This document shows, one piece after another, positions 2,472 to 36,672 of a DNA stretch of 43,655 nucleotides (positions are counted from its first letter, which is position 1; every line of letters begins with the position of its first letter). The stretch comes from Longimicrobium sp. GTDB taxonomy: Bacteria; Gemmatimonadota; Gemmatimonadetes; Longimicrobiales; Longimicrobiaceae. Made by a program: the position numbers and the translations under genes. The stretch lies in the NCBI GenBank assembly GCA_036389795.1, contig DASVWD010000239.1, forward strand, positions 1 to 43,655, in the 5' to 3' direction. The notes under the pieces were generated by a model. That model ran no database searches, was not told the origin of the DNA, and worked only from the letters and a program-made list of their open reading frames with translations.

Positions 2472-4130
2472 TCAGCCCCGGCTGCGCGCCGCCGCCGTCG
2501 CGGGGACCGGCGCCGGCACCGGCCGCGGCACCCGCGCGAAGGTCTCCGCCTGGGTGGCGGCCCCGCGCAGCAGCCCGAGCGCCGCCTGCAGCTGGTCGTC
2601 GCGCGCCGCCGCCCGGCGGAAGCTGGCCGAGTCGCCGAACGCCAGCGAGGCCACGCGGTCCTCCAGCAGCCGGTCGATCCACCCGGATCCCGCGTCGAAC
2701 TGCCCCCGCTCCACCGCCACGCCTTCCCTGCGCAGCCGCGCGAAGAGCTGCTCGCGCCACTCCGGCCCCGGCACGAAGTCCGGCCGGGCCGTCCTCGCCA
2801 GCTCCAGCGTGAGCTCCGAGAGCACCTCGTTCGTCGCCGACGCCCGCGCCGAGAGCGCCCGCGCCAGCGCGCGCTCGGGCCCCGCCAGCGTGTCGGAGCG
2901 CACCACCACGTCCGGGGTGATCCCCCCGCCGCCGTACACGGGCCGCCCCTGGTCGGAGTGGAACACCGGCCGCGCCGCCAGCGCCGAGTCCGAGGGCGGC
3001 AGCGTGTCCTCGGGCGCGAAGGAGCCGTCGGGGAGCAGCTTGCGCTCGCGCTGGATGGAGCGGCCGCTGGGCGTGTACCACTTCCCCGTGGTCAGCTTGA
3101 GCGCCCACCCGCCCTCCAGCGGGAAGAGGTCCTGCACCAGCCCCTTACCGAAGGTCGGCTCGCCGACGACCACCGCGCGGTCGTGGTCCTGCAGCGCCCC
3201 CGCCACGATCTCCGCCGCCGACGCCGTCCCCTCGTCGGTGAGCACCACCACCGGCTCGGCCGGCGCCAGCGGGTCGGCGGCCGCGCGGTACACCTCGGTG
3301 GGGACGTTGCGGTAGACCACCCGCAGCACCTCCTGCCCCCGCTTCACGAACACGTTGCTGACGCGGATCGACTGGTCCAGGCTCCCGCCGCCGTTGCCGC
3401 GCAGGTCCAGGACGAACGCCCGCGCCCCCGCCTTGCGGAGCCCCGCCACCGCCCGGTACACCTCCTCGGCCGAGCTCTCGCTGAAGCGGTCCAGCGGCAG
3501 GTAGCCGATGCGGTCGTCCAGCATCAGCGCGTAGGGGACCACGGGGATGTGCACCACCGCCCGGCGCGCCTCGATGCGCACCGGCGCGGCCTCGCCGCGG
3601 CGCACCAGCGCCACGCGCACGGTGGTCCCCTCCGGCCCCAGCAGCCGCGCCGTCACCCGGTCCAGCGGCACCCCCGTCACCCGCACCCCGTCCACCTCCA
3701 CGATGCGGTCGCCCACCCGCACCCCCGCGCCCTCGGCGGGCGTCTGCGGATAGACGCGCATCACCGTGGCGGTGTCGCGCACCACCTCCACCAGCATCCC
3801 CAGCCCGCCGTAGCCGTTGCGCAGGCTCTCGCGCTGGAAGTCGGCCAGCTCCTCGGGCGAGTAGAGGTCCGCGTACGGGTCGCCGATGCGGCGCAGCAGC
3901 CCGCGCGCCGCCATCTCGTACAGGCTGTCCTCGGGCACCTGGTCGGCGCCCAGCGCGTACACGCGCGCGAAGACCTCCTGGAAGAGCTGCGCGCCGTCGC
4001 TCACGGCGCTCTGCAGCATGAAGCCGCCCACCACCAGCGGCGGCACCAGCGCCGCCAGCAGCGCGCGCTTCAGGCCGCGCCTGCGCTCCCGCGCGTCCAC
4101 GCGGCGGGCGGGGGTCCTGCGACGGCTCAT
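2472..4130 (-). CDS. S41 C-terminal processing peptidase (CtpA-like)
   Basis: Predicted 552-residue membrane-anchored serine protease of the tail-specific/CtpA family, acting in the periplasm. From the N-terminus: basic stretch, one membrane segment (about 24-42), a PDZ domain (about 107-178, with GYGGLGM and AGVRVGDRIVEVDG), and the S41 core with LDLRGNGGGS. The Ser-Lys dyad is visible as Ser304 in DEGTASAAEI and Lys329 in TFGKG. The long C-terminal tail after the core (from about 380) resembles that of C-terminal peptidases from related phyla. The start ATG shares its A with the TGA stop of the upstream gene (CGGTGATGAGC), pointing to translational coupling with the NTF2-like gene. No partner or substrate is suggested beyond that coupling. 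Confidence 0.94.
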   Translation of the reverse strand: MSRRRTPARRVDARERRRGLKRALLAALVPPLVVGGFMLQSAVSDGAQLFQEVFARVYALGADQVPEDSLYEMAARGLLRRIGDPYADLYSPEELADFQRESLRNGYGGLGMLVEVVRDTATVMRVYPQTPAEGAGVRVGDRIVEVDGVRVTGVPLDRVTARLLGPEGTTVRVALVRRGEAAPVRIEARRAVVHIPVVPYALMLDDRIGYLPLDRFSESSAEEVYRAVAGLRKAGARAFVLDLRGNGGGSLDQSIRVSNVFVKRGQEVLRVVYRNVPTEVYRAAADPLAPAEPVVVLTDEGTASAAEIVAGALQDHDRAVVVGEPTFGKGLVQDLFPLEGGWALKLTTGKWYTPSGRSIQRERKLLPDGSFAPEDTLPPSDSALAARPVFHSDQGRPVYGGGGITPDVVVRSDTLAGPERALARALSARASATNEVLSELTLELARTARPDFVPGPEWREQLFARLRREGVAVERGQFDAGSGWIDRLLEDRVASLAFGDSASFRRAAARDDQLQAALGLLRGAATQAETFARVPRPVPAPVPATAAARSRG

Positions 4131-4630: not shown

Positions 4631-4657
4631 CCGTCGAGACTCGTTCGAAAGGAATGG

Positions 4658-5014
4658 TCAGGAGGTTCGGCCCTCGCCGGGCCGTTCCCCGCCCTCGGGG
4701 CCGTAGAAGAACACCCAGGTGGCGAAGTCGTCCGAGAAGTCCTCGAAGCGGTGGACGACGCCGGCCGGGACGAAGAGCACGTCGCCGGGCCCGAAGACGT
4801 GCCGGTCGGCGCCGTTGACGAACCACCCCGTCCCGGAGATCACCACGTACACCTCGTCGCGCGTGTGCGGCTGCTGCGGGTCCGTCCCGCGCGGCGCGTA
4901 CACCTCCACCACCAGCGAGCCGTGCTCGAGCTGCGTGGTGAAGCGCTCGCCGCCCGGCCCGGGCAGCGTGGCCAGCGCCTCGGCCGCGGTGACGCGGCGC
5001 CGCGCTTCGCTCAC
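4658..5014 (-). CDS. Small single-domain cupin
   Basis: A 118-residue cupin without signal peptide, probably cytoplasmic. Both cupin motifs are present: HTRDEVYVVISGTG (His50, Glu54) and GDVLFVPAGVVHRF (His88), which would bind a metal. The first motif has a single His, so a three-ligand site is the safest reading. The GTG start overlaps the TGA stop of the upstream serine hydrolase in a GTGA, so the two are translationally coupled. Small cupins of this type are sensors, isomerases or dioxygenases; the sequence does not say which. Confidence 0.88.
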   Translation of the reverse strand: MSEARRRVTAAEALATLPGPGGERFTTQLEHGSLVVEVYAPRGTDPQQPHTRDEVYVVISGTGWFVNGADRHVFGPGDVLFVPAGVVHRFEDFSDDFATWVFFYGPEGGERPGEGRTS

Positions 5015-6328: not shown

Positions 6329-6443
6329 GGCGGGCTGCGCCCGCGCGCTTCGCGCCGACGGGGCGAGTATCGATGCGAGGGAGCAACCTGCCTCGCCCGT
6401 GCGGCGCCTGCCACCCGCGCCGAACCCGCGCCCACACCGAAGG

Positions 6444-6491
6444 AGCCCGCGCAGGCGGGCTTTTCGCCGTTGTAGCCGCGGGTTCACCCGC
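6444..6491 (+). repeat. Two-hairpin repeat family C, copy 2
   Basis: Hairpin A is AGCCCGC-GCAG-GCGGGCT (6444-6461) and hairpin B is GCGGGT-TC-ACCCGC (6478-6491). Copies 3-6 are at 9957, 20974, 22170 and 30650. Confidence 0.8.
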
Positions 6492-7045
6492 CTTTCCCCA
6501 CCCAGACCCACCCCCAACGGAGCAAGCCCCGGCGCGGCGGGGAGCGGGCCGGCGGGTGGGACCGGCCATCCTCCGCGCGGCCGGGGCCGCTCGGGTCGGG
6601 GCGCCGCCGGCGCGCGGGCGCCGCAGCGCGATTCTATCCTGTCTCGGGAAGCCTAGAAAGCCTCCATCCTTCCCGCCTGGACCGGCGTCTCACGTGGAGT
6701 CCGCCCCCGCGGCCCTCAGCCGTGCCCACCCGGAGAAGCGCATGAGGGCTTTGAAGTGGGGGTTGCGTCGGCGTTATCGAGCCGCGGAGGACGGTGCTCT
6801 CTCCACTCGCCGGACTGCTGCCCGGCGCTAACAGCTTAGCACCGCGGGCGGCCGCGCAGGTACCGGAACGGGACGGGACGTGTCGGCGGGTGACGAGCGG
6901 TGGACGCGCGGGACGAGCGGAGAGCACCCGTTTCCCGAACACACCCCGAAATCCGAATGACTGGACGGCGCCCGCCCGCCGCCCGCACCTTCCTGCCACG
7001 CGGCCGATCCCGGTCGCGCGGGAACGGCGAGGACCGGAGCGAGGC

Positions 7046-9856: not shown

Positions 9857-9956
9857 CACCCGTCTCCCGCTACCGGGCTCCCGCTCCGCAGGCGGCACGC
9901 GCCCACGCTCCAGGAAACCATGCCGTCCGAGTCGAAGGCCGACCCCGCACCGAACC

Positions 9957-10004
9957 AGCCTGCGAAGGCAGGCTTCTCGCCGTTGTTGCCGCGGGTTCAC
10001 CCGC
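9957..10004 (+). repeat. Two-hairpin repeat family C, copy 3
   Basis: Hairpin A AGCCTGC-GAAG-GCAGGCT (9957-9974), linker TCTCGCCGTTGTTGCC, hairpin B GCGGGT-TC-ACCCGC (9991-10004). It sits in the gap between the small membrane subunit gene and the cytochrome c gene. Confidence 0.8.
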
Positions 10005-10038
10005 CCCTGCCCGAATCGCACCCCGCACTTCGCACTCA

Positions 10039-17627: not shown

Positions 17628-17682
17628 GGGCCCTCACCCGGCGGCCTTAGAGCCGCCACCCTCTCCCAACTTCGGGAGAGGG
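17628..17682 (+). repeat. Double-hairpin repeat family B, copy 2
   Basis: GGGCCCTCACCC, then hairpin GGCGGC-CTTAGA-GCCGCC, then CCCTCTCCC-AACTTC-GGGAGAGGG (17659-17682). The first stem is GGCGGC/GCCGCC here but GCCGC/GCGGC in the other copies, a paired change. Unlike the others it does not directly follow a stop codon. Confidence 0.8.
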
Positions 17683-17720
17683 GACTCGACGGGGCTTTGG
17701 CGCGTGGGAGCGGGACCCTC

Positions 17721-17823
17721 GTAGGGGCGAGGCATGCCTCGACCGGCGGATGGCAGTACATGCGCGGCAGGCGGCCTCTTGCGCCGATGCCTCCTGTGCT
17801 CGGACTCGCAGGCTCGCCCCTAC
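17721..17823 (+). repeat. Repeat family E (GTAGGGGCGAG), copy 1
   Basis: About 103 bp bounded by GTAGGGGCGAG (17721) and CTCGCCCCTAC (17813-17823), an inverted pair. The interior, including CGACCGGCGGATG and GGCGGCCTCTTGCGCC, is nearly identical to the copy at 36848-36949. Confidence 0.85.
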
Positions 17824-17833
17824 GGAACCGCGG

Positions 17834-17982
17834 AAGTTGCATGAGGGATGCGCGCCCGACAGGGCCGGGACCGTGGCGGCCGGGGGGTTTCGGCCGGCGC
17901 GGGCCCGGCGCCGTTGGGCACGGTCGTATCGTGCCCTACGGCGCGCGCAGCCCGGCCCGGAGCGCAGCGGAGGGACATGCCC
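17834..17982 (+). repeat. Composite leader element (repeat family D), copy 2
   Basis: Begins AAGTTGCATGAGGGATGCGC and ends GGAGGGACATGCCC. Hairpins on this strand: GGCCG/CGGCC around GGGGGTTT, and GGGCACG/CGTGCCC. It stands 71 bases upstream of the FNT gene start, in the same orientation relative to the gene as copies 1 and 3. Confidence 0.85.
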
Positions 17983-17991
17983 AAAACGGCA

Positions 17992-18024
17992 GTGCGAAAG
18001 TGCGTGAGTGCGAAAGTGCGAAAG
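17992..18024 (+). repeat. 8-nt tandem repeat before the FNT gene
   Basis: Four units of GTGCGAAA/GTGCGTGA in tandem, ending about 30 bases before the FNT start codon. Related runs lie at 15366-15474 and 36575-36604, also next to gene starts. Confidence 0.75.
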
Positions 18025-18053
18025 TACAAAGCACCCTCACCTGGGCGGCGTCC

Positions 18054-29388: not shown

Positions 29389-29818
29389 TCGTCGGTCTCC
29401 GTCGGAGGGTCGAGAAGGGCGGAGCGGGGACGGACACAAGGCAATCGCCCGTGCCTACGGAACAAACGTGCCGCGGCGGGCATCGTCACGTTCGCGCGGC
29501 CCCGGCGCCGCCGCGGGCAGCCCCCACCCTGGCGCCTGGCGCGCCTGTCCCTCCCCCGAATTTCAGGGAAGGGACCTTGGCACGGACCGGCGGCCCCCCG
29601 GAGACGGACCGGGCCAAGGAAGCGAGGGCTTTGGCTGGCCGGGTGGCCGGGAGAGCATGAGGTAAACACGGGGCGCGCTGGTCGGCTTACCGGTTTCCGC
29701 TGGACATGGCAGAGGCCGTGGATTACTCTGCTCTCCTGCCCCTCCCGCGTCGCCGGCCACGGATGGCGCGCCACCCGCGGCCGTTCGGCCGCCCCCAGGG
29801 TCAGAAACGGAGGCGAAC
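29389..29818. other. Divergent intergenic region
   Basis: Between the outer-membrane protein (minus) and the cysteine-repeat protein (plus). It contains a family B-like repeat (29518-29576). No gene is visible. Promoters must lie here for both genes; TGGACA (29701) with TACTCT 17 bases on is only a weak candidate for the plus-strand gene. Confidence 0.5.
29518..29576 (+). repeat. Family B-like repeat, copy 1 (CCCTGGCGCCTGGCGCGCCTG)
   Basis: CACCCTGGCGCCTGGCGCGC followed by a hairpin around CCGAATTTCA with GTCCCT/GGGAC arms. The second copy at 30539-30594 is nearly identical, with a perfect CCCCTCCCC/GGGGAGGG-type stem. The two flank the cysteine-repeat gene on either side in the same orientation. 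Confidence 0.75.
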
Positions 29819-30472: not shown

Positions 30473-30538
30473 ACGGTGATGCGCCCCGACGCTCGAGCGT
30501 CCAGACGCACGAAGGGGCCCCCGGCGCGCGCCGGGTGA

Positions 30539-30594
30539 CAGCCCACCCTGGCGCCTGGCGCGCCTGCCCCTCCCCCGAACTTCAGGGGAGGGAA
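30539..30594 (+). repeat. Family B-like repeat, copy 2
   Basis: CAGCCCACCCTGGCGCCTGG, then CCCCTCCCC and its complement around CGAACTTCA. Close to the copy at 29518 and lying just after the cysteine-repeat gene, so it may act as its transcript end. Confidence 0.75.
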
Positions 30595-30649
30595 CTCGGA
30601 GCTTCGCGCGACGCAACCAGGCGCGGGAGCGAGATGGATTGCGCGGTTG

Positions 30650-33036: not shown

Positions 33037-34581
33037 ATGAGCCCACGTCCGACCTTCCTCTCCGCGCGCACGGCGATCCTGGTCGCGGCGGCGCTGCTCG
33101 CGCCGGGCGCCGCGCACGCGCAGACCGGCGCCCTGCCGCCGGAGCTGGACGCGTACATCGCGAAGGCGCTGGCCGAGTGGGAGGTGCCGGGAATGGCGCT
33201 CGCCGTCGTCCGGCACGACTCGGTGCTGGTGGCCAGGGGCTACGGCGTGCGCGAGCTGGGGAAGCCGGGGCGGGTGGACGAGAACACGGTGTTCGACATC
33301 GCCTCGCTCACCAAGAGCTTCACGGCGGCCGGCGCGGCGGTGCTGGTGGACGAGGGGAAGCTCGCGTGGGACGACCCCGTGCGGCGCTGGCTGCCGTGGA
33401 TGGAGTTCCCCGACGCGTACCTCACGCGCGAGGTGACGCTGCGCGACCTCCTCTCGCACCGCACAGGGCTGGAGGCGGCCAACTTCGCCTACCGCTTCAC
33501 CGGCATCGACCGCGGGGAGACGCTGCGGCAGGTGCGCTGGATGCGGCCGCAGGCGCCGTTCCGCACGCGCCAGGTCTACAACAACATCCTCTACGCCGCC
33601 GCCGGCGAGGTGACGGCCGCCGCGGCGGGGACGACGTGGGCGGAGCTGATGCGGACGCGCCTCTTCCAGCCGCTGGGGATGGGGAGCACCACGGCGGAGG
33701 AGGAGCCCGACCGCGCCGGGAACGTGGCTTCGCCGCACGCACCGATCGGCGGCGTGCAGCGCCCGGTCCGCGCGCGCAACCACCAGGCCATCTCCCCGGC
33801 GGGCGGGGTGTACTCCACGGCGGCCGACATGGCGCGCTGGCTCCGCTTCCAGCTCGCGGACGGCGTGCTGGACGGGCGGCGGGTGATCTCCGCGGCGGCG
33901 ATGGCGGAGATGCACCACCCGTGGACGGTGATCCCCACCACGCCCGAGATGCGCGCGTCGCGGCAGGTGGAGGGCTACGCCGGCTACGGGCTGGGGTGGA
34001 ACGTGATGGACTACCGCGGCCGCCCGCTGCTCTGGCACAGCGGCAACTCCGACGGGATGCCCAGCTACATGGCCATCCTGCCGAAGGACGGGATCGGCGT
34101 GGTGGTGATGCTGAACTCCTGGGGCGCCTCGGTCCTGCACGGCGAGCTCGTCTCGCGCGTCCTGGACACGCTCCTGGGGCTGCCCACGCGCGACTACAGC
34201 GGCGAGCTGATGGCGCGCACCCACGAGGCCGAGCGCCGCGCGCGGGAGGCGGCCGCGCGCGAGGACTCGGCGCGCGTGCGCGGGACCCGCCCCACGCTGC
34301 CGCTGGACGCCTACGCGGGAGTGTACGCCGACAGCCTGTACGGCGAGATCGCGGTGGCGCGCGAGGGGGAGAAGCTCACGCTGCGGATGGGGAAAGGCGA
34401 GATCGCGGACCTGGAGCACTGGCACCACGACACCTTCCGCGTGCTCTGGCGCGACGACCTGTTCCGCGAGTACTTCTCGACGCTGGTGACCTTCTCGCTC
34501 GACGCGCGCCCCGCGCCGGCCATGCTGGGGATGCGCCTCAACCGCGACTGGATCGAGGCGCGGCGGAGGGCGGCGCCGTAG
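33037..34581 (+). CDS. Secreted class C-like serine hydrolase, likely BlaI-regulated
   Basis: A 514-residue exported serine hydrolase. The signal peptide ends near AAHAQ. Motifs: Ser90-Leu-Thr-Lys93 (SLTK), Tyr181-Asn-Asn183 (YNN) and HSGN in LLWHSGNSDG, in the class C beta-lactamase/DD-peptidase fold. A C-terminal domain (about 410-514, YAGVYADSLYGEIAV...TLRMGKG) resembles the DUF3471 lipocalin-like domain found in esterase relatives. ATG 33037 is preceded by GAGGATG. It lies 83 bases after the M56 gene, with an operator dyad between, so it is likely induced when M56 inactivates BlaI. Whether it hydrolyses beta-lactams, D-peptides or esters is open. Confidence 0.92.
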   Translation: MSPRPTFLSARTAILVAAALLAPGAAHAQTGALPPELDAYIAKALAEWEVPGMALAVVRHDSVLVARGYGVRELGKPGRVDENTVFDIASLTKSFTAAGAAVLVDEGKLAWDDPVRRWLPWMEFPDAYLTREVTLRDLLSHRTGLEAANFAYRFTGIDRGETLRQVRWMRPQAPFRTRQVYNNILYAAAGEVTAAAAGTTWAELMRTRLFQPLGMGSTTAEEEPDRAGNVASPHAPIGGVQRPVRARNHQAISPAGGVYSTAADMARWLRFQLADGVLDGRRVISAAAMAEMHHPWTVIPTTPEMRASRQVEGYAGYGLGWNVMDYRGRPLLWHSGNSDGMPSYMAILPKDGIGVVVMLNSWGASVLHGELVSRVLDTLLGLPTRDYSGELMARTHEAERRAREAAAREDSARVRGTRPTLPLDAYAGVYADSLYGEIAVAREGEKLTLRMGKGEIADLEHWHHDTFRVLWRDDLFREYFSTLVTFSLDARPAPAMLGMRLNRDWIEARRRAAP

Positions 34582-34629: not shown

Positions 34630-34683
34630 GGGCCCTCACCCGCCGCCTTAGAGCGGCAACCCTCTCCCAACTTCGGGAGAGGG
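34630..34683 (+). repeat. Double-hairpin repeat family B, copy 3
   Basis: GGCCCTCACCC, hairpin GCCGC-CTTAGA-GCGGC, hairpin CCCTCTCCC (34660-34668)/GGGAGAGGG (34675-34683). It lies 49 bases after the serine hydrolase stop, between convergent genes. A CCCCTGT-rich stretch (34720-34748) then runs up to the GH15 stop; a similar one lies at 318-356 next to the M28 stop. Confidence 0.8.
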
Positions 34684-34751
34684 TGAGCTCGACCGCCTCG
34701 GTGCGGGTTGGGAGTAGCTGCCGGCTGTCCCCTGTCCCCTGTCGCCTGCGG

Positions 34752-36574: not shown

Positions 36575-36604
36575 GTGCGTGAGTGCGTGAGTGCGTGAGT
36601 GCGT
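36575..36604 (-). repeat. 8-nt GTGCGTGA tandem repeat before GH15
   Basis: Nearly four tandem copies of GTGCGTGA directly before the proposed GH15 start codon. Related to the GTGCGAAA runs at 15366-15474 and 17992-18024. Confidence 0.8.
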
Positions 36605-36672
36605 TCGGACGCGTCACATCATCCGTCGGCCGGGGCCGCGCGGCAAGATCGCGAACCGCGAACCGCTGGCTC

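Follow-up and report, generated by a model that had tools for sequence, protein, structure and literature searches.

The closest described systems to the repeats reported here are REPINs, which are REP doublets that form hairpins and are moved by RAYT transposases (PMC3116915), bacterial interspersed mosaic elements, or BIMEs (PMC2817692), MITEs and RU/ERIC elements (PMC10969869, PMC2759123), and the Frpo/ssi promoters, which act as single strands in the leading regions of plasmids (PMC9849209, PMC11541004); of these, Frpo1 and Frpo2 of the F plasmid are 92% identical and lie upstream of ygeAB and ssb (PMC9849209). The window, by which we mean the whole 43,655-nt stretch of Longimicrobium DNA analysed, holds three repeat families, B, E and D, that follow one another in the gaps before several genes. 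Our literature searches found no paper on D, queries with sequence strings giving just papers on human microRNA variants, and nothing useful on repeats of Longimicrobium or Gemmatimonads, while Rfam 15, run on the window, D and the plasmid loci described below, gave D and its relatives no score above the gathering threshold of any family.

D resembles a REPIN in being extragenic and present in more than 100 copies, in its conserved ends and variable spacer with compensatory changes, and in its putative single-stranded DNA hairpin. It differs in being a multi-branched cloverleaf of ~143 nt with six helices rather than an inverted doublet of short REPs, its ends share just a 5-bp complementary stem, and no RAYT gene was found beside it. 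With BIMEs the composite shares the architecture of an intergenic mosaic of palindromic modules and linkers, but BIMEs alternate the orientation of their REPs, whereas the three families B, E and D hold one order and one orientation. D behaves like a REPIN or a BIME, being intergenic, amplified and structured, yet misses defining features of both, in that no inverted REP doublet, no alternating orientation and no adjacent RAYT were seen. E is short, intergenic, non-coding, bounded by 12-bp terminal inverted repeats and partly solo, like MITEs and RU/ERIC elements, but no parent insertion sequence was identified for it, and D ends in its 5-bp stem with no long inverted repeats.

We propose that non-autonomous intergenic repeats of REPIN/BIME/MITE-like character make up the composite first read as a leader, a mosaic that has a polarity of its own and D as its core and that was copied genome-wide and recently amplified; we assign this reading a probability of roughly 0.6. 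E, which carries terminal inverted repeats and is confined to this species, would have inserted beside pre-existing D copies, and composites of B, a filled slot and D would subsequently have been amplified as units, producing the constant order. The D fold would act in transiently single-stranded DNA and may serve as substrate when D, without a gene of its own, is copied or moved in trans in a REPIN-like manner. A mild tendency for B to stand at a stop codon and D at the next start may reflect tolerance of the terminator-like hairpin of B just past genes, rather than leader function.

The positions of the elements are collected in Table 1. On direct reading of the three gaps, and as an earlier note on this DNA had stated, those before the FNT and GH15 genes hold B, E and D where it placed them, and the M28 gap has B and D in the same order; the constant orientation it gave to the 8-nt repeat does not stand, as the GH15 array runs opposite to both D and the gene. 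In place of E, which the M28 gap lacks, CTGTTCCCTGT-type repeats occupy the slot between B and D. By Pfam, the genes that follow the gaps (FNT, PF01226; GH15, PF00723; M28, PF04389) are mutually unrelated. The consensus of B folds with z = -4.9, and no clear target-site duplication accompanies E. Across loci, B is followed by GGGnTCGGTGCG, then by either of two alternative slot fillers, E with a GGCGCTTCGCGCGACGAAACCCG-like linker or CTGTTCCCTGT repeats, and then by D, on whose 3′ side stand arrays of the GTGCG or GTTCGC type, the GTGCG type in either orientation (genome-wide, sense at 23 and antisense at 14 of 92 D flanks). The linkers that join the three elements are conserved across many loci, and other hairpin families occupy the same mosaic positions. 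Within the window, further intergenic repeats, a GCCTGC/GCAGGC hairpin with CCGCGGGTTCACCCGCC (6426-6499 and 9939-10012) and a B-like CTGGCGCCTGGCGCGCCTG...CTCCCCCGAA hairpin (29500-29580 and 30519-30599), belong to the same mosaic vocabulary as B-E-D. Near the two ends of the contig (170-211 and 43407-43448) stand the arms of a 42-nt inverted repeat (GGCGATGTGTTCTC...), which are 88% complementary.

Table 1. Positions of the repeat elements in the window and of D-like elements on plasmid loci
Feature	Location	Coordinates	Strand	Remarks
B, double-hairpin repeat	FNT gap (divergent)	17628-17690	+	nhmmer profile of copies
E, 103-bp element	FNT gap	17722-17824	+	terminal inverted repeat CGTAGGGGCGAG...CTCGCCCCTACG
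D, ~143-nt cloverleaf-like element	FNT gap	17839-17981	+	covariance model R1, E 1.8e-16
GTGCGAAA-type 8-nt array (GTGCG)	FNT gap	17992-18023	+	sense
FNT start codon GTG	FNT gene	18054	+	
B	GH15 gap (tandem)	37035-36971	-	
E	GH15 gap	36948-36847	-	
D	GH15 gap	36815-36676	-	at site common to congeners G008 and G002
GTGCGTGA 8-nt array	GH15 gap	36575-36605	+	antisense to D and GH15
B	M28 gap (tandem)	2417-2353	-	
D	M28 gap	2286-2145	-	covariance model R1
B, solo	convergent gap between 33037-34581 (+) and GH15 (-)	34630-34692	+	
D-like element	L230 (pUTME-10-1)	725-805, 4001-4081		
D-like element	L224, L225, L231			

The genome to which the window belongs (G000) is a 7.5-Mb draft with 72% GC, of which we analysed 2.04 Mb (27%), partly chosen for D-bearing contigs; genes were called by a purpose-written codon-model finder, and repeat copies were gathered by iterating nhmmer profiles of the three families. 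After removal of duplicate strand hits this sample held 96 D, 59 B and 43 E, and an unpicked subset leads to whole-genome estimates of ~280, ~120 and ~100, respectively. Many contigs of the draft start or stop inside D, making it a main source of assembly breaks (C10, C31, C33, C46, C51, C77, C153, C163, C174, C184 and C226 touch D at the first ~135 bp, and the ends of C4 and C37 do so as well), and given these contigs the copy number of D is probably underestimated. Overlaps of at least 20 bp with a predicted gene are limited to 1 of the 96 D and a single B, in sequence of which ~73% is coding. Within the sample E stands 5′ of D in 27/27 pairs, 26 of them on the same strand, B lies on the 5′ side of D in 37/38 pairs and of E in 17/17, and full-length B is always on the strand of D (35/35). 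The spacings are narrow, at 15-45 bp from E to D and 20-57 bp from B to E, and the distance from B to D falls into two groups, 17-88 and 122-187 bp, the larger mostly with E in between. This internal order is far beyond chance genome-wide and tracks D rather than the gene, being preserved in reversed tandem and in convergent gaps, and it most likely stems from the copying of composites; E and D also occur as solo copies. A genome-wide count of order and orientation, which the earlier note had put forward as a check, thus upholds a non-random order and reduces orientation to genes to a bias.

Indeed, the constant orientation to the downstream gene that had been seen in the window is lost at genome scale. 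By gap type, the D copies of the 2.04-Mb sample are tandem forward in 41 cases, tandem reversed in 17, divergent in 16 and convergent in 13; the forward excess in tandem gaps (p = 0.002) holds for composites (23:6, p = 0.002) but not for solo D (18:11, p = 0.26). At such frequencies three forward copies in one window are unremarkable. Among gaps of at least 200 bp, D is found at similar rates in convergent (13/88) and tandem (58/418) ones, and since no gene starts in a convergent gap, these copies and the reversed ones leave both a leader and a duplicated promoter, two of the options raised at the outset, unsupported; for the three window gaps the duplicated promoter was rejected on their account. 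A role of B-E-D as a riboswitch- or attenuator-like RNA leader that regulates the genes downstream in cis is in our view most unlikely. It would account for the 41/58 tandem D that face the start codon of the next gene, usually 30-230 nt ahead, for the conserved fold and for a GH15 copy common to three species, but one third of the copies are reversed or in convergent gaps, the helices are nearly without G-U pairs, which their covariation avoids, no D was found close to the FNT and M28 orthologs of G008 and G002, Rfam holds no match and the downstream genes are unrelated. The remaining option, a mobile intergenic module, is supported by the many copies, their strictly intergenic position, the species-specific amplification, and presence or absence at orthologous sites. 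The 23:6 bias of composites has no direct explanation in random insertion and counts against the mosaic reading. A reading by replication strand was also tried, in which the strand of D correlates with local codon-3 GC skew (rho ~0.3-0.4); as the skew flips sign inside contigs and neighbouring D tend to alternate strand (16/49 same), it allows no replichore conclusion.

D is composed of P1 (GCGTG/CACGC), P2, the C(GNA)G hairpin Pa, a variable P3, P4 with loop AGTNGTATC, and P5. In an alignment of 30 diverse copies (A1), 97.1% of the cells in this structure are paired, and both sides have changed in 19 of 43 pairs (100 cells); none of 500 shuffles was as high on every measure, slid-structure controls reached at most 51% paired cells, and RNAalifold independently recovered an almost identical structure. 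Loops and junctions carry invariant motifs. D is an old element of the whole family, in which Watson-Crick compensation has preserved a cloverleaf-like fold. Across P1, P2, Pa, P4 and P5 of 80 D copies from G000 there are 2 G-T and 4 A-C against 2389 Watson-Crick cells, copies that are mutually related rather than independent, and in tRNA stems of the same genomes 47/840 are G-T, from ARAGORN structures, which favour allowed pairs and may under-report A-C. As G-T is no commoner than A-C in the stems of D, the constraint or process that shapes pairing would act on DNA, and it is as DNA, not RNA, that D appears to fold. It has in common with the structured RNAs of Rfam a fold supported by covariation and differs from them in being nearly free of G-U pairs. 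At loci L155, L212 and L215 of congener G007 and L156 of G009, the loop of the P3 hairpin resembles that of P4 (AGTATCGT / AGTACCGT), as though P3 had received a duplicate of P4. An attC-like reading of the ends of D, judged by eye, was rejected, as the core sites misfit and the flanks vary.

Comparison with nine congeners, scored among the best 20-150 candidates per genome, gave 68 (G008), 57 (G002), 26 (G009), 12 (G007), 2, 1, 0, 0 and 0 copies of D, which thus occurs in some members of the genus and family and is patchy between species. B-like hairpins were found in 8/9 of these genomes and E in 0/9, so that within the genus it is known from this species alone. D lies upstream of GH15 at the same place and in the same orientation in G000, in G008 (D 6602-6780, gene from 6983, same strand) and in G002 (D 1069-1234, gene up to 923, minus strand), and it has been kept while the GH15 protein diverged to 77% identity; this could mean a host function of D at some sites and counts against the mosaic reading. 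Because this copy is common to three species, it predates their split, and since E was not found in G008 or G002, E would have arrived later, in the G000 lineage, beside a D already in place. No D was found near the FNT and M28 orthologs of G008 and G002, and at one D of G008 (L152) the orthologs of the two flanking genes stand side by side in G000 with no D between them, an empty site. Most orthologous gaps being judged by coordinates, the sites of D are a mix of old shared and lineage-specific ones.

The older D at GH15, the 15-45 bp between E and D, and the existence of solo copies of both would also fit a site-specific insertion of E and B beside D or into its flank as the source of the constant order, a sub-question of the mosaic reading and compatible with it; we find this possible but somewhat unlikely, given linkers conserved over many loci and no clear target-site duplication seen at E. 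That D is instead a protein-binding or chromosome-organising site, BIME-like in serving gyrase, a nucleoid protein or DNA repair, and was selected and amplified by the host for this, draws on its intergenic position, its structure, the invariant motifs in its loops and junctions and its long conservation at GH15. We consider it quite unlikely, with D absent from 3/9 and near-absent from 2/9 congeners and its copy number varying more than 100-fold. As to how the mosaic might be moved, G000 has just two Y1_Tnp genes (PF01797), neither adjacent to D, the nearest D being ~2.2 kb off at a contig end; no transposase could be linked to D in this genome, and neither a target-site duplication nor an excision product was found, which weighs against the mosaic reading.

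Relatives of D were found beyond the Gemmatimonadota. An exact 27-mer from its 3′ end had no match in genome contigs, and a degenerate 29-mer from its 5′ end matched Gemmatimonadota and Pseudomonas, the D-like element of the latter leading by search to relatives on plasmids. The consensus of these occurs in 3,711 plasmid records, 2,844 of them conjugative, in E. coli genomes at 4,636 places on plasmids versus 55 on chromosomes, and in no phages. R1, built without any plasmid loci, aligns end to end at 13 places on ten tested loci, mostly with E of 3e-5 to 2e-3. The plasmid forms are without P4, keep P1, P3 and P5 with compensatory changes, and have Pa invariant. Judged from sequence motif and fold, on which the link rests, common descent of D and the plasmid elements is likely. 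That the D copies are what is left of integrated conjugative elements, with the plasmid-type relative in their leading regions, would fit the matches of R1 to this fold on conjugative plasmids; such an origin is scarcely credible for D copies that occur one by one across the genome, flanked in the window by metabolic and protease genes unrelated to one another, and that have the P4 which the plasmid forms lack.

Several plasmid copies lie near ssb, antirestriction, methyltransferase, partition or umuDC genes, and in conjugative plasmids of Pseudomonadota and Bacillota a GC-rich D-like element is found a few hundred bp from ssb. On an IncF plasmid both D-like copies are inside a duplicated block of ~540 bp, 91% identical, together with a AAAATTTTTTACC/GGTAAAAAATTTT hairpin, which fits the published description of Frpo1/Frpo2 of F (PMC9849209, PMC11541004). 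Relatives of D thus share a block with a Frpo-like hairpin on this plasmid, and Frpo works as folded DNA, as D appears to; D and its plasmid relatives differ in being GC-rich rather than an A+T-rich hairpin, and of the -35 and -10 boxes that the folded strand of Frpo rebuilds for RNA polymerase, D has no evident -10. On a Pseudomonas fluorescens chromosome (L205) two D-like elements, at 4704-4787 and, more weakly, 6611-6695, stand ~1.9 kb apart in a region of unidentified genes that is possibly an integrated element. The Sporomusa plasmid pSSP59 (L224) carries a type-P5 twister ribozyme above the Rfam threshold (2505-2564, minus) ~1.2 kb from its D-like element, and a second, weaker match (1667-1721). 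We tentatively suggest, at somewhat less than even odds, that D and thousands of plasmid copies are one undescribed family acting as folded single-stranded DNA, located on plasmids in leading regions near single-strand promoters and ssb, and that a derived, P4-bearing version in a Gemmatimonadota clade became a chromosomal repeat at hundreds of copies.

The analysis separates two look-alikes that met in one window, a constant internal order, which is real, and a constant orientation to genes, which is a sampling effect on top of a mild bias. Furthermore, R1 describes a defined, covariation-supported DNA fold with near-zero G-U, whose plasmid counterpart lies beside genes expressed from incoming single-stranded DNA. 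This provides a testable entry to the role of folded DNA in conjugation and to the route by which such elements may become chromosomal repeats.
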